Shown here piece after piece: positions 34,210 through 44,118 of a stretch of DNA of 64,000 nucleotides. Every line of letters starts with the position of its first letter. Positions within the stretch are counted from its first letter, which is position 1. The stretch comes from Gammaproteobacteria bacterium (GTDB taxonomy: Bacteria; Pseudomonadota; Gammaproteobacteria; Steroidobacterales; GCA-2729495). Under the pieces are notes generated by a model. It was not told where the DNA came from, ran no database searches, and worked only from the letters and a program-made list of their open reading frames with translations. The DNA lies in NCBI GenBank assembly GCA_016874095.1, contig VGVH01000001.1, forward strand, positions 186,001 to 250,000, read 5' to 3'. Made by a program: the position numbers and the translations under genes.

Positions 34210-35796
34210 CTACTTCCGGAACATCGCCAGCATGCGCCGCGTCACCGCGAAGCCGCCGAACATGTTGACGGCGGTGAACGTGAGCGCGATCACGGCAAGG
34301 GCGAGGATCAGCCCGTCCGACCGGCCTGCGACGTCGCCGCCGAGCGGCGGCCTCACCTGGATCAGCGCGCCGACCGCGATGATGCTCGAGATCGCGTTGG
34401 TCACGCTCATGAGCGGGGTGTGCAGCGACGGCGTCACGTTCCAGATCACCATGTAGCCGACGAAGCAGGACAGCACGAACACGGTGAAGTGCCCGAGGAA
34501 CGAGGCCGGCGCGAACGCGCCGATCAGGCCGAACAGCACCGCGCCGCCGGCGAATATCGCCGCGAGCGACTTGCCGGACATCGGTGCGCCTGCCTCGTGC
34601 CCCACCTTCTTCACGGGCGCCTGCTTGGCGGCGCCCGGCTTCCCCTGCGGCGGCGCGGCCGAAAGCTTCGGCGCGGGCGGCGGCCAGGTGACTTCGCCGT
34701 TCTTTATCACTGTCGCGCCGCGGATCATCTCGTCGTCGAAATTCACGTCGAGCGTGCCGTCCTTGGCCTTGCAGAGGTCCTCGGTGAGCCGCAGCAGGTT
34801 GGTGGCGTAGAGCGTCGAGGACTGCTTCGCCACCCGGCTCGGCAGGTCGGTGTAACCGATGATCGTGACGCCGTGGCGCACGACCACCTCGCCCGGTACC
34901 GTCAGCTCGCAGTTGCCGCCCTGCTCGGCGGCGAGGTCGACGATCACGCTGCCGGCGCGCATCGACTTGACCATGTCGGTGGTGATCAGCTTCGGCGCGG
35001 GCTTGCCCGGAATCAGCGCCGTGGTGACGATGATGTCCACTTCGGCCGCCTGCTTCGCGAAGGTCGCAAGCTGCGCCTTCTGGAAGCCTTCGCTCATCAC
35101 CTTCGCGTAACCGCCGACGCCCGTGCCTTCCTCTACGTAGTCGACGGGCACGAACTCCCCACCCATCGACTTCACCTGTTCGGCGACTTCGGGCCGCGTG
35201 TCGTTGGCGCGCACGATCGCACCGAGCCCGGCGGCCGTGCCGATGGCCGACAGGCCCGCGACGCCGGCGCCGATCACGAACACCTTCGCGGGCGGTACCT
35301 TGCCCGCTGCGGTGATCTGCCCGGTGAAGAAGCGCCCGAAGTGATGGGCTGCCTCGATGACAGCGCGATAGCCGGCGATGTTGGCCATCGACGACAGCGC
35401 ATCGTTCTTCTGTGCGCGGGAGATGCGCGGGATGCTGTCCATCGCGAGGACCGTCAGGCAGCGCCCGGCGAGCTGCTGCATCAGCTCGGGGTTCTGCGCC
35501 GGCCAGATGAAACTGACGAGCGTCGTGCCGGGTTTGATCTGCGCGATCTCCTCCGGCGTCGGCGCTCGGACCTTATATATGACGTCGGCGACGGCAAAAA
35601 GCCAGGCAGCGTCCGGGACCACCGTGGCGCCCGCCGCACGATAGGCGTCGTCGTCGAAGTTCGCGCCGATCCCGGCCCCGCTCTCGACGGTCACCGCAAA
35701 GCCGAGCTTGATGAGCTTGCCGACGACCTCGGGCACCGTCGCGACGCGCTTCTCGCCCGCGAAGACTTCGCGGGGCACTCCGACCACCAGCGGCAT
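34210..35796 (-). CDS. pntA: NAD(P) transhydrogenase subunit alpha
   Basis: A 528-residue alpha subunit of the fused type, as in enterobacteria. The N-terminal AlaDH/PNT domain starts [20 protein letters not shown]. The NAD-binding glycine motif is [21 protein letters not shown], followed by [12 protein letters not shown] and [16 protein letters not shown] Pro/Lys-rich linker (about 375-405) leads to the four C-terminal helices ([20 protein letters not shown] and the [19 protein letters not shown] region). ATG start at 35796. It forms an operon with pntB. Confidence 0.96.
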
Positions 35797-35899: not shown

Positions 35900-36757
35900 T
35901 CAGCCGACCCTGGCCGCGACGAACAGGCCGGTCGCGGCCCAGTCCCTGAACCAGCCCGACAGCAGCGCCGGCAGGCGGTCTGCCGACACGCGCAGGTCAC
36001 GGCAGCTGCGGGCGATCGCCCGCCCGATCGGCACACCGCGCCCGAGCAGGCGCAGGAGTGCGTACTGCTCGCGGGTCAGCGAGGTACGCAGCACGCGCAG
36101 GCCGTGTCGATGGACGAGAACCCAGGCAGGGCGCGGTCGCGGCCTGGAAGCACTGCGGCGGGAACGCAATGCCGTCATATGGGAATTGGCATCGCAATCG
36201 AGGGCAAGCAGCCGCATCGCGGGCGTCAGCTCGAGGCGCATCCTGCCCCAGGCAGCGGCTGGCAGGGCCGCCATCGCCGCGGGCGAGAGCAGTTCACCGG
36301 CCGGCGCATCGAATACGTCTTCCATAGCGCGCTCGATCCGCGCCAGGGAGACCGCGAGTGCGGCGCCGCGCTTGCCGCGCAGGCGCCGGGCGAGGAAGTC
36401 GGGAAACTTCGCGCTGAGACCCAGCAGCAGCCGCTCGGTCGAGGGGTGGCGCGCGAGATAGGCGCGGCAGGCGGCATCGAACGCGCGCTCGCCCATCGCG
36501 TCGCGCGTGGTCGGGTATTCGTTGGCCATGACTTCGACGAGGCGCAGCCAGTAGGCCTCCGCGTAGATATCGAGCCGCTCGATCGCCGAGAGCCTGCTCG
36601 ACCGCGTCACGACCCGCTCGATGTCACCCACCGCGACGTCGATCTGGCGACGGGCGCGTGCATGGCGCAGACCGCGCGCACTGCCGCCTGCATGGGTCAC
36701 GACCGCCAGCATCCAGCGCTCGAGCCGGTCGAGGCCGGCGCTGCCCGCGTCAGCCAT
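35900..36757 (-). CDS. bufC: DUF2063-type RiPP partner protein (BufC-like)
   Basis: A 285-residue protein with the DUF2063 N-terminal segment: LDRLERWMLAVV, RLSAIERLDIYAEAYWLRLVEVM and EYPTTRDAMGERAFDAACRAYLARHPS. In MNIO clusters this protein is thought to bring the precursor to the modifying enzyme. ATG at 36757 overlaps the 3' end of the DUF692 gene by 8 nt, so the two are translationally coupled. The C-terminal part is Arg/Leu-rich and less conserved. The assignment rests on the domain and on the genes beside it. Confidence 0.8.
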   Translation of the reverse strand: MADAGSAGLDRLERWMLAVVTHAGGSARGLRHARARRQIDVAVGDIERVVTRSSRLSAIERLDIYAEAYWLRLVEVMANEYPTTRDAMGERAFDAACRAYLARHPSTERLLLGLSAKFPDFLARRLRGKRGAALAVSLARIERAMEDVFDAPAGELLSPAAMAALPAAAWGRMRLELTPAMRLLALDCDANSHMTALRSRRSASRPRPRPAWVLVHRHGLRVLRTSLTREQYALLRLLGRGVPIGRAIARSCRDLRVSADRLPALLSGWFRDWAATGLFVAARVG

Positions 36758-37604
36758 TGGCGGCCTTGCGCGCGTCGCGGAAACGCACGGCCCGGGCAAC
36801 TTCCCGCTGCAGGACCTGGAACTTCGGGATATCGGCATCCCACTCGAGCAGCGTGGCCGTGTTGCCGCGGCGACGCTGGGCTTCTGCGTACAGCTCCCAC
36901 ACGGGATCGATGACGCGCCCGTTGTGCGTGTCGATGCAGTGCGTGCCGTGGTCGGTGTGGCCGGCGAGATGGATCTGCACGACCCTGTCCCAGGGAACCG
37001 ATGCGAGCCACTCCAGTGGATCGAGATCGTGGTTGCGGCAGGTGACGTAGACGTTGTTGACGTCGAGGAGCAGCGCGCAATCGGCCTCCTCGGCCAGGCG
37101 CGCGATGAACTCCTCCTCGGGCATGGTCGAAGCGCGAAACCTGAGATAGGTCGAAGGATTCTCGAGCACCAGCGGCCGCTCGAGGAAATCCTGGGCAGCG
37201 CGCACGCGCGCCACCATGTGGCGCAGGCTCTGCTCCGTGTAGGGCATCGGATACAGGTCGTGGCCGTTCACGCCAGCGACACCGGTCCAGCAGACATGAT
37301 CACCGAGCCAGGCGGCACGCACTCGCGTCGCGAGCGCCTTGATCTTGCCGAGAAATTCGAAGTCGAGCGGATCGGTGCTGCCGAGCGACATCGACACGCC
37401 GTGCATCGCGATGGGATAGCGCTCGGCGATGCGATCGAGGTAATGCAGCGGCGGCCCGACTGTGTCGATGAAGTTCTCCGACACGATCTCGAACCAGTCC
37501 ATGCCAGGCCAGTTTTCGACGACGTGGCGGAAATGCGCGGGGCGCAGCCCGACGCCCAGGCCGAGGTCCGGAAGACCCCAGCGGTTGCCTGCAGCGGAAC
37601 TCAT
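36750..37604 (-). CDS. bufB: DUF692/MNIO multinuclear iron RiPP-modifying enzyme (BufB-like)
   Basis: A 284-residue TIM-barrel oxidase of the MNIO (DUF692) family. These enzymes use two or three irons to rebuild cysteines in a precursor peptide, for example into thiooxazole rings. Visible metal-ligand segments are MHGVSMSLGSTDPLD, WLGDHVCWTG, VLENPSTYLRF, LLLDVNNVYVTCRNH, IHLAGHTDHG and TLLEWDADIP. GTG at 37613 is possible, but ATG at 37604 has AAGGGGGG 9 nt upstream and is preferred. That Shine-Dalgarno lies in the 3' arm of a hairpin (37614-37641), which may restrain translation relative to the precursor. Confidence 0.88.
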   Translation of the reverse strand: MSSAAGNRWGLPDLGLGVGLRPAHFRHVVENWPGMDWFEIVSENFIDTVGPPLHYLDRIAERYPIAMHGVSMSLGSTDPLDFEFLGKIKALATRVRAAWLGDHVCWTGVAGVNGHDLYPMPYTEQSLRHMVARVRAAQDFLERPLVLENPSTYLRFRASTMPEEEFIARLAEEADCALLLDVNNVYVTCRNHDLDPLEWLASVPWDRVVQIHLAGHTDHGTHCIDTHNGRVIDPVWELYAEAQRRRGNTATLLEWDADIPKFQVLQREVARAVRFRDARKAANG

Positions 37605-37613
37605 CGAAGGCAC

Positions 37614-37641
37614 CCCCCTTACTCCGGACGGAGTGAGGGGG
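37614..37641 (-). promoter_or_regulatory. Hairpin sequestering the bufB ribosome-binding site
   Basis: Between the precursor stop and the bufB start the minus-strand RNA can form a stem of about 12 bp (CCCCCTCACTCC against GGAGTAAGGGGG, one mismatch) with a small loop. The 3' arm is the bufB Shine-Dalgarno. There is no T tract, so it is more likely a translational or mRNA-stability device than a terminator. It may keep enzyme levels below precursor levels. Confidence 0.65.
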
Positions 37642-37658
37642 ACATCGTCAACGAAAGA

Positions 37659-38012
37659 TCAGTGCTTGACGGGCGATTCGCAGCCGCCCTTGCCCTTGCA
37701 GGAGTTCTTGCCGGCGCAGCCGCCGTCGCCGGACTTGCAGCCGCCCTGGCCCTTGCACTGGTTCTTGCCCTTGCAGGAGTGCTTGGCCGAGGCGCAGCCG
37801 CCCTTGCCCTTGCAGGAGTTCTTGCCGGCGCAGCCGCCGTCGCCGCTGCTGCAGCCGCCCTGGCCCTTGCACTGGTTCTGGCCCTTGCAGGAGTGCTTGT
37901 CGCCGCCCTCGTGTCCGCCCGCCATCGCCGTCTGGCCGAGCTGCGCCCCCGCGACCAGGCCTGCCGCGACACCGAGCAATGCCTTGTTGAACTTGCGTCG
38001 ATTGAAAGCCAT
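37659..38012 (-). CDS. bufA: Cys-rich bufferin-type RiPP precursor (BufA-like)
   Basis: A 117-residue precursor. Residues 1-31 form a signal peptide with a twin-arginine-like NRRKFNKALLG start and AMA cleavage region. The mature part is two 38-residue tandem repeats (39-76 and 77-114) of the pattern SCKGxNQCKGQGGC...CAGKNSCKGKGGC with six Cys each, 12 in all, rich in Gly and Lys. Such proteins with DUF692 and DUF2063 partners are periplasmic copper-binding bufferins in which Cys residues are modified. A good AGGGAGAACGAC ribosome site precedes ATG 38012. Which cysteines are modified cannot be read from the DNA. Confidence 0.82.
   Translation of the reverse strand: MAFNRRKFNKALLGVAAGLVAGAQLGQTAMAGGHEGGDKHSCKGQNQCKGQGGCSSGDGGCAGKNSCKGKGGCASAKHSCKGKNQCKGQGGCKSGDGGCAGKNSCKGKGGCESPVKH
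37681..37908 (-). repeat. 114-bp tandem duplication inside bufA
   Basis: The 114-nt unit at 37681-37794 is repeated at 37795-37908 with few differences, giving two in-frame 38-residue units. Within each unit, shorter CCCTTGCA-type blocks encode the CKG motifs. Near identity suggests a recent duplication of the metal-binding module. Confidence 0.85.
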
Positions 38013-38193: not shown

Positions 38194-40170
38194 ATGACCC
38201 GCTCGCCGATTACGGCTGCATTGCTGGTGCTGCTCGCCGCAGGCCCTGCGATGGGCGACGGCTGGGCTTACTACGGCGGCGACCCCGGCGCGGGCCGTTT
38301 CTCGCCACTCCAGCAGATCGACCGCGGCAACGTCGGTGAGCTGCGCGAGGCCTGGCAATGGCGCCACGGCGACCTCGACCGCCACCCCGACCGCCGTGGC
38401 TTCGCCGGCTTCCAGGCGACGCCGATCCTGCTGCCCGACGCTGCCGGCGGGCACCTGGTGGTCTGCACGCCGTTCAACCGCATAGTCGCGCTCGACCCGG
38501 CGACCGGCCGCGAGCGCTGGAGTTACGACCCGAAGGTCACCCTCAGCAAGATCCCCACGCGCTTGAAGTGCCTGGGCGTGGCCTACTGGCACGACAGCCA
38601 GGCGACCGCCGGCAGCCACTGCGCGCACCGCCTCTACTCCGGCACGACCGACCGCCGACTGCTCGCCATCGACGCCGGCGACGGCCAACCCTGCGCCGGC
38701 TTCGGCACGAACGGCGCGGTGGACGTGAACGGGATCATCCAGGCGACTACCCCATCCCACCCGGACCCCTGGGGAACGCTGTTCTCGGCACCGCCCGTGG
38801 TCGTAAACGGCGTGGTGGTGATCGGCAACATCAACAACATGAAGAACCAGTTCGTCGAGGCGCCGAGCGGGGCGGTGCGCGCCTTCGACGGCCGCAGCGG
38901 CGCGCTGCGCTGGTCGTTCGACCCGGTGCCGCGCAACGAGCAGGACCCGCAAAGACTCGCTGCGCTGGGCTGGACGCGCGAGAGCGTGGATCGCACGGGC
39001 GGGGCGAACGTCTGGTCGCTGATGTCGGTGGACGAAGCCCGCGACCTGGTGTTCCTGCCGACGGCGAGCGCTGCACCGAACTTCTTCGGCGGCACGCGCC
39101 CCGGCGACAACCGCTACGCGAATTCGGTGGTGGCGCTGCGCGGCGCAACAGGCGAAGTGGTGTGGCACTTCCAGACGATCCACCACGACGTCTGGGACTG
39201 GGACGTACCAACACACCCGATCCTGGTGGACGTGCCGATCGACGGCACACCGAAACCGGCCGTCGTGCAGCTGACGAAGCAGGGCCTGGTGTTCGTGCTG
39301 GACCGCGAGACGGGCGTGCCGCTGATCCCGGTGGAGGAGCGCCCGGTGCCGACGGACGGCGTGCCGGGCGAACAACTGTCACCGACGCAGCCGTTCCCGG
39401 TGCGCCCGCCTTCACTGGTGAGAAGCGGGATCACTCCGGACGATGCCTGGGGCGTGACGCCCTGGGACCGCAACTCCTGCAAGAAATGGATCGCGAGCGC
39501 CCGCACCGGCCCGATCTACACGCCACCCTCGACCGACGGCTGGATCATGTACCCCGGCACCGCCGGCGGCATGAACTGGGGCGGCGGGGCCTACGACCCG
39601 AGGCGCAACATCCTCGTCACCAGCACCTCGCAAGTCGGCATGTGGCTGCGCCTCTTCAAGAACGACGACGTGGCGCTCGAGAAAGACTTCGACGCGTCCG
39701 CCGGCGCGCCGCAGGGCCGCCCCGCCGTGATCCGCGGCACGCCCTACGCGCTGGAACAGAAAATCCTGATGAGCCCGTCGTTCATGCCCTGCACCGCCCC
39801 GCCCTGGTCGACGCTCGTCGCCGTGGACCTCGCGAAGGGCACGATCGCCTGGAACGTCCCCCTCGGCACGATCGAAGGCCTCTCCCCGCTGCCCATCCCG
39901 CTCGAGTGGGGCTCCCCGACCGCCGGCGGCGCGATCGCCACCGCAGGCGGCCTCGTCTTCATCGGCGCCACCGCAGATCGGCGCATCCGCGCGTTCGACA
40001 TCGACACCGGCAAGGTCGTCTGGAGCCAGCGCACCCCCGTCGCCTCGCACGCCACCCCGATGACCTACGAGTACCGCGGCAAGCAGTACGTAGTGATTGC
40101 TTCGGGCGGGCACATGTTTATCAATGCGGCGGATATCAACGACTACTTGATTGCGTATGCGTTGCCTTAA
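38194..40170 (+). CDS. PQQ-dependent dehydrogenase (quinoprotein glucose dehydrogenase type)
   Basis: A 658-residue periplasmic beta-propeller dehydrogenase: signal peptide (ITAALLVLLAAGPAMG), then DGWAYYGGDPGAGRFSPLQQI, the first blade motif (PFNRIVALDPATGRERWSYDP), HFQTIHHDVWDWDVPTHPIL (PQQ-site W-docking segment), KQGLVFVLDRETG and GGLVFIGATADRRIRAFD. There are no N-terminal membrane helices like those of E. coli Gcd, so it is likely soluble; the electron acceptor is unknown. ATG at 38194 is chosen because upstream frame sequence is antisense to the buf genes. It is divergent from bufA, with 181 nt between them. Confidence 0.88.
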   Translation: MTRSPITAALLVLLAAGPAMGDGWAYYGGDPGAGRFSPLQQIDRGNVGELREAWQWRHGDLDRHPDRRGFAGFQATPILLPDAAGGHLVVCTPFNRIVALDPATGRERWSYDPKVTLSKIPTRLKCLGVAYWHDSQATAGSHCAHRLYSGTTDRRLLAIDAGDGQPCAGFGTNGAVDVNGIIQATTPSHPDPWGTLFSAPPVVVNGVVVIGNINNMKNQFVEAPSGAVRAFDGRSGALRWSFDPVPRNEQDPQRLAALGWTRESVDRTGGANVWSLMSVDEARDLVFLPTASAAPNFFGGTRPGDNRYANSVVALRGATGEVVWHFQTIHHDVWDWDVPTHPILVDVPIDGTPKPAVVQLTKQGLVFVLDRETGVPLIPVEERPVPTDGVPGEQLSPTQPFPVRPPSLVRSGITPDDAWGVTPWDRNSCKKWIASARTGPIYTPPSTDGWIMYPGTAGGMNWGGGAYDPRRNILVTSTSQVGMWLRLFKNDDVALEKDFDASAGAPQGRPAVIRGTPYALEQKILMSPSFMPCTAPPWSTLVAVDLAKGTIAWNVPLGTIEGLSPLPIPLEWGSPTAGGAIATAGGLVFIGATADRRIRAFDIDTGKVVWSQRTPVASHATPMTYEYRGKQYVVIASGGHMFINAADINDYLIAYALP

Positions 40171-41279: not shown

Positions 41280-42044
41280 ATGATTACTCCAGCACTCCGC
41301 ATCACCGCCTGCTTCCTCCTCGGCTTCACGGCACTCGGCGCCGCCGCCGAGGACCAGCCCGTCCCCCGCCACCCCAAGGCACCGCCGCCGCCCGACCAGT
41401 TCTACACGCACAGCGGCTTCGAGGGTCGCGAGGCCGAACTCGGCAACGCCGTCATGGAGGCGATCCGCAAGGCCGGGCCCGAGCGCGGGGTCGCCACGCA
41501 GTTCAACGCCGAGCAGCAGGCGGACGTCGGCCTCGCGGTGGCGCGCGCGATCCAGGTGATCAGCGTCACCGAGCCCTACCAGCACGAGTTGAACGATGCC
41601 CTCGTCAAGGCCCAGCTCACGGCGCTGCAGTTCGCCAAGAACAACAGGATGATCGCCAAGTACGTCGACCACGAGGCCCTCACCCAGACGCCGATGCTCC
41701 TGCGCGTCGGCAAGCTGATGTCCCAGGGCGGCAGCCCCGAGCTCGGGATCATCGCCATAACCGAGCGCACCGCCTGCTTCTACCAGCTGGTGCTCGACTA
41801 CCAGCGCGACGGCATGACCATGCGCTGGAAGTCGCCCTACGGCGTCGTCCTCGCCGCCGGCACGCCCATCGGCCAGTTCAACATGACCGAGCAGGAAGTC
41901 CACGAGATTTTCACCATCCCGGCCATGCAGAAGCGCGCCGCGGTGATGGGCATGGAACTTGAGTTCTCGCCCTGGCAGGCCGACGGCTGGATCACGATGA
42001 CGGCGCGGATGGCGAAGACGGTCGCCGCTGCTGCCGCCCGCTAG
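41280..42044 (+). CDS. Secreted protein of unknown function
   Basis: A 254-residue precursor with a signal peptide (LRITACFLLGFTALGAAA). The mature part is mostly helical with HSGFEGREAELGNAVMEAIRKAG and a central helix-rich part. No family recognised. ATG start at 41280. It is preceded by a short AT-rich stretch (about 41110-41175) with a GAAAACT/AGTTTTC inverted repeat (41110-41116 and 41137-41143) and ACTG repeats. It is convergent with the DUF3106 gene, overlapping it by 4 bp. Confidence 0.6.
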   Translation: MITPALRITACFLLGFTALGAAAEDQPVPRHPKAPPPPDQFYTHSGFEGREAELGNAVMEAIRKAGPERGVATQFNAEQQADVGLAVARAIQVISVTEPYQHELNDALVKAQLTALQFAKNNRMIAKYVDHEALTQTPMLLRVGKLMSQGGSPELGIIAITERTACFYQLVLDYQRDGMTMRWKSPYGVVLAAGTPIGQFNMTEQEVHEIFTIPAMQKRAAVMGMELEFSPWQADGWITMTARMAKTVAAAAAR

Positions 42045-42532
42045 TCGGCCGGCCTCCGCTGCGGGGCGTCCCGCAACCGCGGTGGCGGCGGCGGCCGGTC
42101 GCCGTGGCGCCTGCGCCATTCCTCGCGCAGCCGCGCCCGCTCCTCGGGTTCGAGCTGGCGGAAGCGCTCGAAGCTGCGCCGCAGGCGGGCCCGCTCGAGC
42201 GGCGTCAGCTCCTGGAAGCGCTGGTAGTGGCGGCGCAGGCGCTCTTTCTGCCAGGGCTTCAGCTCCTGCCACATCCCGAAGCGCGCGTTGGCGGCGCGGC
42301 GCTGGTCCGGGCTCATGCCTTGCCAGCGCAACGAGCCGGCGGCGAGGCGCTGCTGGCGCTCGGCCGCCATCGTGCTCCACTGCGACTCCAGCGGCGCGAG
42401 CAACTGCCGCTGCTCCTCGCTCAACGCCGACCACTCGATGCCCGGCGCGGCCGGTGGCTCGTCGGCCCGAACCGCGAAAGCCGGCGCCAGCAGCAATAGA
42501 ACCGTGATCGCGACAGCGCGCAGGTTATTCAT
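42041..42532 (-). CDS. DUF3106 family secreted protein
   Basis: A 163-residue precursor with a signal peptide (VAITVLLLLAPAFAVRA). It then has repeated Arg/Glu/Trp-rich helices of the DUF3106 type: WSALSEEQRQLLAPLESQW, RWQGMSPDQRRAANARFGMW, LKPWQKERLRRHYQRFQEL and RFRQLEPEERARLREEWRR. The function is unknown; the repeats look like CpxP/Spy-style helical modules. ATG at 42532 overlaps the preceding small gene. It is the last gene of the sigma-factor operon. Confidence 0.78.
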   Translation of the reverse strand: MNNLRAVAITVLLLLAPAFAVRADEPPAAPGIEWSALSEEQRQLLAPLESQWSTMAAERQQRLAAGSLRWQGMSPDQRRAANARFGMWQELKPWQKERLRRHYQRFQELTPLERARLRRSFERFRQLEPEERARLREEWRRRHGDRPPPPPRLRDAPQRRPAD

Positions 42533-42767
42533 CGTTGTTGCCCTCCGCATCCCCGATCCTTGCATCGCCGTCGCCTTTTCCGTCGTTCCTCAGCACCAGG
42601 TCGAGCAGGCCGATCCAGTCCTCGCCGCTTTCCTCGCCAACCCAGTCGCCGAGAAACTCGAGCAGCTCCGGGCTGGGAGCGATCTCCGCGTCCTCCGCGA
42701 GCGCCGCGGCAGCGGCGAGCGCGAGGACGAACAGGGCGGTCTTGCGTTGCGGGACATGACCGGTCAT
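42525..42767 (-). CDS. Small acidic exported protein
   Basis: An 80-residue precursor: signal peptide (TALFVLALAAAAALA) followed by a strongly acidic mature part (LLEFLGDWVGEESGEDW, ending in Asp/Glu/Asn-rich residues). The sequence is anti-sigma-operon-specific in position but has no domain I recognise. It overlaps the DUF3106 start by 8 nt and begins 4 nt after the anti-sigma-like gene. Confidence 0.6.
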   Translation of the reverse strand: MTGHVPQRKTALFVLALAAAAALAEDAEIAPSPELLEFLGDWVGEESGEDWIGLLDLVLRNDGKGDGDARIGDAEGNNDE

Positions 42768-42771
42768 GCGC

Positions 42772-43170
42772 TCAGCCCGCGCGCTCCGGGCCGCCCTGCA
42801 GCTGCGGCTGGCTGTCCAGCCATTTGTAGAACTCCAGCTCCTCGAGCATTTCCAGGCTGTCTTCTGCCAGCAGCAGCTCCAGTTCCAGCGCCGGATCCGC
42901 CCCGTCGATCGACGGCGCGACCGGCGACAGCGGCCCGCCGCGGCCGGGCCACAGCGCGATGGCGAGCGCGGCGAGGGCGGCGGCGCCCAATGCCGGTTGC
43001 CAGCCGGAACCGAGCCCGGCCGGCCGGTGCCCGGCGTGATCGAGCTCGGCGAGCACCTGCTGGCGGGCGCGATTCAGTCGCGAGCGGGTCGGCCCGTCGA
43101 TGGCGTCGGCCTGCTCGCGCAGCGCGTCGCGCAGCCGGGTTTCAAATCGGTCTTCCTTGTCGTCGGTCAT
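42772..43170 (-). CDS. Anti-sigma-factor-like single-pass membrane protein
   Basis: A 132-residue protein with an N-terminal cytosolic segment (FETRLRDALREQADAIDGPTR), one membrane helix (PALGAAALAALAIALW) and a C-terminal exported acidic part (LELELLLAEDSLEMLEELEF). It resembles DUF3619-type proteins found beside ECF sigma genes. It probably binds the sigma factor encoded just upstream; the start ATG at 43170 overlaps that gene's stop. The role is inferred from position. Confidence 0.65.
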   Translation of the reverse strand: MTDDKEDRFETRLRDALREQADAIDGPTRSRLNRARQQVLAELDHAGHRPAGLGSGWQPALGAAALAALAIALWPGRGGPLSPVAPSIDGADPALELELLLAEDSLEMLEELEFYKWLDSQPQLQGGPERAG

Positions 43171-43784
43171 GACCAGTGGTCCCCCATTTTTTCGCGCAGC
43201 GCGTGCACCGCGCGGGAGTAATGCGTCTTTACGCTGCCCTCCGAGCACCCCATCGCCGTCGCCGTTTCCGCCACGTCCAGACCCTCCAGAGAGCGCAGCA
43301 GGAAGGCCTGCTGCTGGCGCGCGGGGAGCCCGGACACGGCTGCTTCGAGCGCCGCCATCGCGTCGGCGGCACCGACCCGGGCGTCCGGCCGGTCGGACTC
43401 CGGTGCCGGCGCGGCGAGCAGCGGATCCTCGGCGTCTTCATCGTTCGCGCGCGGCGTGAAGAACGCGAGCACCCGCCGGCGGACAGTGCCGCGGCGCTGG
43501 TGATCGAGGATACGATTCTGCAGGATGCGGAAGAACAGCAGCGGCCATTCCGCCTCCGGCGCCTGCGCATAGCGGCGGACCAGCCGCAGCATGGTGTCCT
43601 GCACGATGTCGAGCGCGTCGTCGGTGTCACGCACGGCGTAGCGGGCCATCCGGAAAGCGCGCCGCTCGACGCCGGCGAGAAACCGTTCCATGGCGGCGCG
43701 ATCCGGCAGAGACGCCTCCTTCGCTGGCGCGCCCGCGAACGTCGGCGCGACAGTCATCACGAGCATCGATCGGGTCGCAGGCAT
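43167..43784 (-). CDS. ECF-type RNA polymerase sigma factor
   Basis: A 205-residue sigma70-family factor. Region 2 is FRMARYAVRDTDDALDIVQDTMLRLVRRY with FRILQNRILDHQRR. Region 4 is LPARQQQAFLLRSLEGLDVAETATAMGCSEGSVKTHYSRAVHALRE. It would direct RNA polymerase to a small stress regulon including its own operon. Starts at 43784, 43766 or 43757 are all possible. First gene of the four-gene operon. Confidence 0.88.
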   Translation of the reverse strand: MPATRSMLVMTVAPTFAGAPAKEASLPDRAAMERFLAGVERRAFRMARYAVRDTDDALDIVQDTMLRLVRRYAQAPEAEWPLLFFRILQNRILDHQRRGTVRRRVLAFFTPRANDEDAEDPLLAAPAPESDRPDARVGAADAMAALEAAVSGLPARQQQAFLLRSLEGLDVAETATAMGCSEGSVKTHYSRAVHALREKMGDHWS

Positions 43785-43980
43785 AGCATAGACCGCTCGT
43801 CGTTGTCGCCCGCCAGCACCGCCGGCCGGGTGTATTCGACGGTTCACCAGTGGGTTACAACGCAGCAGGGAAGGAACGGTTGACTGGACGCCGGCGCGCC
43901 GGGGTCGGTCTTTTTGTTCACCAGCGCAACGCCGCTGGCAGCTTAGGCGGGCATGCGCCGCTGAAGCCGAAGGAATGGCG

Positions 43981-44118
43981 TTCAAGTTACTGTTTTAAAA
44001 AAAGAATGTTGATTCGATCAAAAATTGCCCAGCTTGCCATAACTGCTGATTTTCGGGGCCTTGGGGGGCGCCGCCAGTCATCATCCACAGTGTTATCCAC
44101 AGTTTTTGTGGACAAATG
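43981..44118. promoter_or_regulatory. AT-rich stretch and three DnaA-box-like 9-mers upstream of priA
   Basis: The 384-nt gap between the divergent sigma and priA genes carries an AT-rich stretch (43981-44026) that is unusual in this GC-rich window. About 55 nt further come TCATCCACA (44081-44089), TTATCCACA (44093-44101, perfect DnaA-box consensus) and, on the minus strand, TTGTCCACA (44107-44115). This is DnaA-binding architecture: either control of priA or part of an origin-like region. No ORF in the gap looks real. Confidence 0.6.

Follow-up and report, generated by a model that had tools for sequence, protein, structure and literature searches.

A minimal three-gene bufABC operon was identified in the window (the whole stretch of 64,000 nucleotides analysed), whose product is most probably a Buf2-like, MNIO-modified peptide that would carry thiooxazoles, be exported by the Tat system after modification and buffer copper in the periplasm (estimated probability about 0.72). 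The genes, their order and families, the four three-Cys units of the precursor, its leader motif and a hairpin were all read from the DNA, and the function is drawn from characterised relatives.

The operon, its enzyme and its partner

The precursor, MNIO enzyme and DUF2063 partner had been described as lying in order on one strand, which direct reading of the sequence bore out: bufA, bufB and bufC are consecutive on the minus strand, with a gap of 54 nt between the first two genes and an overlap between the last two. As the ATG of bufC overlaps the stop codon of bufB, the start of bufC at 36838 in the list of open reading frames is probably too long. The features are as follows.

bufA, 37659..38012, minus strand: precursor of 117 aa made up of a leader and four 19-residue half-modules, with 12 Cys
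bufA leader region, 37908..38012, minus strand: approximately residues 1-35, NRRKFNK at residues 4-10 plus a hydrophobic stretch
bufA module 1, 37785..37898, minus strand: 114 nt, 38 aa, 6 Cys
bufA module 2, 37671..37784, minus strand: 114 nt, 38 aa, 6 Cys, 93% identity with module 1
bufA-bufB gap with hairpin, 37605..37658, minus strand: predicted fold
bufB, 36750..37604, minus strand: MNIO (formerly DUF692) bufferin maturase, 284 aa, in-frame ATG, EWDADIP motif
bufC, 35900..36757, minus strand: DUF2063 partner protein, 285 aa
pntA, 34210-35796, downstream of bufC: Pfam profile match
PQQ-dependent dehydrogenase, 38194-40170, divergent, upstream of bufA

The locus as read holds no genes besides bufABC between pntA and the PQQ dehydrogenase, both of which are ordinary genes, and a promoter scan upstream of bufA gave no match. 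The absence of an exporter or sigma factor alongside, pointed out in the preliminary description, is correct yet expected, because the peptide is made with a signal peptide of its own and sigma factors are reported to be missing from Buf2 clusters (Antoine et al. 2025; PMC12452194). A profile search of the neighbouring proteins located a sigma factor at 43167-43985, 5 kb from bufABC. It belongs to a minus-strand row (42041-43985) of an ECF sigma factor, a DUF3619-like protein (below cut-off) and a DUF3106 protein, which is likely a regulatory operon without relation to bufABC.

The identification as a bufferin-type RiPP cluster is upheld by the bufABC order, the score of the enzyme and the fold of the partner. 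BufB matches the Pfam family MbnB_TglH_ChrH at 344 bits and exceeds the NCBIfam BufB cut-off (NF050167; 343.2 bits versus 310). BufC belongs to DUF2063 (PF09836; 65.1 bits versus a cut-off of 27.2), and the NCBIfam HvfC model gave it 30.4 bits against a cut-off of 142. A PDB sequence search with BufC returned no match, whereas its AlphaFold model (pLDDT 90) had PDB matches with E ≤0.001 only to 8hi7_A and 8hci_A (TglHI) and to 3dee (NGO1945), aligning over 301 columns with 8hi7_A and over 223 columns with 3dee (TM by target length 0.71). Chain A of TglHI is read, from its length, as the partner TglI, and NGO1945 is treated as the typical partner protein by Antoine et al. (PMC12452194). The gene directly downstream of bufB hence encodes a DUF2063 protein that, on the predicted structure, appears to be a DUF2063 plus RRE-type partner (PME-type 1).

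Relatives were sought by scanning a genome collection with six bufB peptide patterns, which reaches close relatives only. Among the 45 related loci found, 20 are titled Planctomycetota. According to the upstream precursor, 15 loci belong to the clade of the window (the RR clade, see below), 15 to sister lineages and nine to canonical Buf2, while three have large proteins and no precursor was found upstream in three (L035, L057 and L074). The partner gene bufC occurs in 44 of the 45, including a weak match at a contig end in L036; the exception, L056, ends inside bufB. Other than bufA, bufB, bufC and open reading frames resembling their antisense shadows, no cluster of neighbours spans more than seven of 46 stretches. 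The locus with the closest bufB relative (L035:1-6700) contains bufC and no Cys-rich precursor within 6.7 kb, which is read as a precursor either lost or encoded elsewhere. In Bacteroidota, long proteins with bufferin-like Cys stretches lie upstream of bufB relatives (L067:1723-2922 and L068:2354-2950) and are possibly protein-sized MNIO substrates; a similar Cys-rich protein is encoded on the opposite strand in L066.

The enzymes of these groups differ at a short motif. The closest solved relative of BufB by sequence, the H. somni MNIO 3bww, has ERDFNFP where the window has EWDADIP; EWD is present in all 35 clade and sister enzymes read (window included) and ERD in all 34 canonical Buf2 enzymes read. 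The next residue is Ala in the window, Phe in 3bww, and mostly Asp, also Ala or Gly, in canonical Buf2 enzymes. At one position, Phe characterises Lys-Cys enzymes and Asp characterises Cys-Lys enzymes, according to Gadgil et al. (PMC13097082). The Ala of the window appears to occupy the position of FonB Phe250, and would then fit an enzyme that is not of the Lys-Cys kind, yet depart from the Asp rule for Cys-Lys MNIOs.

Taken with a few bases on either side, the gap between bufA and bufB is predicted to fold at -27.7 kcal/mol, compared with -19.5 (sd 3.1) for shuffles, and its stem length was reached in none of 100 mononucleotide shuffles. The same test (≤5/100 shuffles) was passed by 20 of 30 clade and sister gaps, counting the window and leaving aside L056 with its 275-nt gap, and stems of at least 10 pairs were present in 21/30 gaps versus 7/30 same-length stretches upstream of bufA. 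The ten failing gaps include five (L038-L040, L046 and L052) in which RNAfold predicts bulged hairpins. Canonical gaps, of which 19 of 39 were tested, passed in 13 cases. The hairpin sequences differ, and the structure is thus one that recurs in bufferin operons rather than a peculiarity of the clade of the window. Its role is probably that of an mRNA stabiliser or attenuator, which would keep bufA mRNA above bufBC and peptide output above enzyme output.

A twin-arginine motif in the leader

The leader of the window's precursor contains RRKFNK at residues 5-10, then a hydrophobic stretch, and, by eye, AMA-GG, a likely signal peptidase I site. RR-x-F-x-K/R plus a mildly hydrophobic, Gly-rich stretch fits the Tat consensus. 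The suggestion of a Tat-like leader therefore stands as far as the motif is concerned, and the motif is a clade trait. It occurs near the start of every one of the 18 precursors in the bufB clade to which the window belongs (that of the window, those of 15 loci and the second precursors of L037 and L045), with R5, R6 and F8 invariant, compared with one of 15 sister loci (L053) and none of the canonical Buf2 precursors, 39 in number (30 from loci chosen by BufA2 score and nine from the 45 related loci). When the residues of each leader were shuffled, the motif arose in 0.015-0.7% of draws. On the careful bufB tree (52 rows) the trait maps as one change. The branch of the 16 RR rows without L053 has 94/74, not a starred value; with L053 included it has 55/87, and a single change was obtained in 54% of 200 bootstrap trees. 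The support for the branch uniting the RR rows is thus not strong, and a quick 77-row tree gave a 17-row set (the 16 RR rows and the precursor-less L035) with SH-aLRT 99.

A lipobox is also present in the clade precursors of L044, L048 and L079 and in the second ones of L037 and L045, which together with the motif would make them Tat lipoproteins. Tandem precursors precede one bufB in L037:2244-2890 and L045:1160-2047, both with the twin-arginine motif, and the sister precursor L053:2643-2912 combines KDGCxx repeats at a 6-residue period with this motif and a lipobox, beside the same kind of enzyme.

The same operon could also carry an ordinary Sec signal whose Arg and Phe residues are conserved for recognition by BufC instead of for Tat export, a reading judged somewhat unlikely. 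It has to set aside the fit to the Tat consensus and the rarity of the motif in shuffled leaders, and the lack of the motif in 39/39 canonical Buf2 leaders, which are served by a homologous BufC, argues against a recognition role. The curated Tat models lend it weight: TIGR01409 matches one of the 18 clade members (E 0.089), TIGR02811 two of them (best 0.0056) and one of 15 sister precursors (E 0.076), PF10399 one (E 0.097), and none of the three matches the precursor of the window itself, so that these few and weak matches, one also in a sister, speak against a strong Tat claim. Moreover, published bufferins are described as exported by Sec, and the signal peptide as part of the BufBC recognition sequence on preliminary evidence (PMC12452194). 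TatC is encoded in the genome of the window (236.2 bits in a profile search), and Tat export, put at about even odds, remains the preferred reading of the leader. On that reading, a branch of MNIO-modified peptides found in both Planctomycetota and gammaproteobacteria would have switched from Sec to Tat export.

Within the literature searched, a twin-arginine leader of bufferin-type precursors was not found described. The words Tat and twin-arginine are absent from the main text of Antoine et al., as far as it was accessible (PMC12452194); precursors with Sec signals were first collected there by use of SignalP 6, and Tat-class precursors could thereby have been set aside. Neither Tat nor twin occurs in the accessible part of a preprint on lipidated RiPPs (PMC12636315). 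Searching publications from 2018 on for MNIO and twin-arginine together gave as sole match a paper on a moss mitochondrial genome, and wider searches had no Tat-exported MNIO peptide among the matches listed.

The modular precursor and its likely metal

The description of 12 Cys in two near-identical six-Cys modules proved accurate, with a finer period beneath it. The two 114-nt copies are 93% identical, over an underlying 57-nt period of 68%, and the Cys spacing is 5,5,6,5,5,6,5,5,6,5,5; the true unit is therefore 19 residues with three Cys, present four times. The precursor shows the CK motifs of Buf2 (6 or 12 conserved Cys) with its 12 Cys in two modules. Against the NCBIfam BufA2 model (NF050166) it scored 52.6 bits over three stretches (E 3.9e-14), below the cut-off of 60. 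The same model matches 17/18 RR-clade precursors (best E 3e-19) and 14/15 sister precursors (best E 7.6e-22), and that of L042 passes with 65.2 bits; the miss is narrow, and at least one relative is over the cut-off. A DUF7640 match in Pfam (E 0.0032, below cut-off; 12/18 RR-clade members, best E 0.00017) was rejected as probably due to the similarity of Cys- and Gly-rich sequences.

The variant lies in the sixth Cys, which in both modules of the window follows the fifth by five residues and closes CKGxGGC. In the canonical Buf2 precursors read (16 of 30 loci), five Cys agree with the first five of the window's module, and the sixth lies in a distal segment, for example TQAQCDAA. All 55 intact six-Cys modules of clade and sister precursors, which were picked by this same Cys spacing, have the sixth Cys closing GGC; most have the full pattern (K in 51/55 and G in 53/55), and Asn 5 and 24 and Gly 11, 30 and 31 are invariant. 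This shift explains the patchy match to the BufA2 model. Among 23 two-module precursors, the modules of the window are the most alike (95% at the nucleotide level over the Cys-to-Cys core; 70-90% in the others), which suggests that a duplication or homogenisation took place recently inside bufA.

Homologues with one to several modules, which the preliminary description had proposed to look for, occur among the relatives. In the 30 loci of the clade and its sisters where a short precursor precedes bufB, intact modules number two in 22 loci, three in one and one in five (L045, with a degenerate second as well, L058, L061, L062 and L064); L037 and L053 carry other Cys repeats and no intact module. 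The three-module precursor (L044:2427-2915, Planctomycetota) contains 18 module Cys, the twin-arginine motif and a lipobox. In five Pseudoalteromonas loci (L071, L072, L073, L075 and L077) the canonical Buf2 module is duplicated, with a lipobox; because these sit in the canonical bufB clade, two-module precursors had at least two origins, provided that the tree is correct. The expectation of an unusually high capacity from 12 Cys was not sustained. Buf2 precursors (earlier Buf_6/12Cys) span 51-367 residues, 90% of them with six Cys and the others with twelve; one 12-Cys member was modelled as duplicated six-Cys domains, and a related EGKCG protein has 58 Cys (PMC12452194).

Copper as the metal of the peptide is suggested by analogy with the family: the characterised members with DUF2063 partners bind copper (PMC12452194 and PMC13097082). 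A role of the modified peptide with gold, mercury, zinc, cadmium or oxidative stress is unlikely on that ground; in its favour, a response to gold is known for gig operons, bufferins fused to MerC occur (PMC12452194), and no copper protein was found among the neighbouring proteins scanned by profile. That the peptide is an unmodified metallothionein-like protein, with an adjoining MNIO that acts elsewhere or not at all, is scarcely credible, since its many Cys and lack of a predicted fold are outweighed by a short Cys-rich precursor ahead of bufB in 39/45 related loci, by the genome search, which counted a single MNIO, adjoining bufA, and by Cys that have Lys and Gly as neighbours, like those of modified relatives.

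Origin, proposed mechanism and comparison with known families

BufB of the window is 78% and 76% identical to those of L035 and L036, both gammaproteobacterial bins, and 61-73% to those of Planctomycetota loci, but shares 42-45% identity with the MNIOs of nine congeners. On the 52-row tree it joins those of L035 and L036 at 100/98, within a set of mixed phyla. In eight of the nine congeners a Buf1-type (DUF2282-like) precursor lies upstream of the MNIO (it is not visible for L111), and the two of these scanned matched PF10048 at 78.5 and 82.5 bits; a profile search of the window's genome gave no DUF2282 match. The pntA gene of the window shares 77-83% identity with its counterparts in eight congeners (the ninth genome, 73% complete, gave a distant match only), and with a contig of 417,744 bases this makes a binning error unlikely. 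The 2.1-5.7 kb that precede pntA in eight congeners (L117-L124) gave no match to any of the three buf genes or to the PQQ dehydrogenase. The operon is missing from these stretches, but the genes around pntA are different as well, so that an insertion site could not be cleanly delimited. The simplest reading of these sequences, in which bufB nests among Planctomycetota and gammaproteobacteria, is that bufABC was probably acquired horizontally by the species of the window.

By analogy with characterised relatives, BufC would bind the leader in the cytoplasm and present the peptide to BufB, which would turn Cys into 5-thiooxazole, each conversion removing 4 Da. The modified peptide would then be exported, most likely by Tat instead of Sec, be processed by signal peptidase and chelate periplasmic copper, thereby buffering an excess of the metal. 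With a Sec signal, premature export has to be avoided until Cys modification is done, a problem raised by Antoine et al. (PMC12452194); a Tat signal could solve it, because Tat exports folded proteins. The AlphaFold2 model of the unmodified peptide (25 aligned precursors) shows no fold (mean pLDDT 44.4), and thus lends no support to a folded Tat substrate; for a beta-helix, which has been published for one EGKCG protein, the model speaks neither for nor against. With Tat export, modification would act as a gate. It is decidedly improbable that folding around cytoplasmic copper gates export as well; if true, the peptide would carry copper in one direction, from the cell interior outwards, besides acting as a sponge in the periplasm. 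The RR clade and its non-RR sisters with related enzymes offer a natural pair for the ordering of modification and export, a question that concerns the largest group of MNIO-made metallophores, and the 19-residue unit with its natural one-, two- and three-module forms lends itself to relating copper capacity to module number.

Compared with known systems, the operon is closest to Buf2 (NF050166, BufA2), with which it shares Cys-Lys motifs, the bufABC order, a DUF2063 partner, the lack of a sigma factor and 12-Cys duplicates (PMC12452194). It differs by the sixth Cys in CKGxGGC, a strict 19-residue period, a score below the BufA2 cut-off and the twin-arginine leader. The 12-Cys precursors of Pseudoalteromonas also have two six-Cys modules ahead of bufB and bufC, but the precursors have a lipobox and their modules are canonical, with the sixth Cys distal; their bufB belongs to the canonical clade, so the duplication is a separate one. 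The EGKCG captophorins (oxazolin HvfA and fontiphorin) similarly have repeated short Cys motifs, a related MNIO and a DUF2063 partner. Three EGKCG peptides carry 5-thiooxazoles and copper binding has been reported (Gadgil et al. 2026; PMC13097082), properties that would extend to the peptide of the window by analogy, whereas they are set apart by their Lys-Cys 5-mer, their 17-residue repeats and the Phe of their enzymes, at what appears to be the place of the window's Ala after EWD. Buf1 bufferins (DUF2282) follow the same bufABC plan, but have four conserved Cys, the DUF2282 domain and, in some clusters, a sigma factor (PMC12452194). The operon is thus mostly of a known kind: doubled precursors have already been published, and what sets it apart is the variant module with its 19-residue period and the twin-arginine leader shared across its clade.
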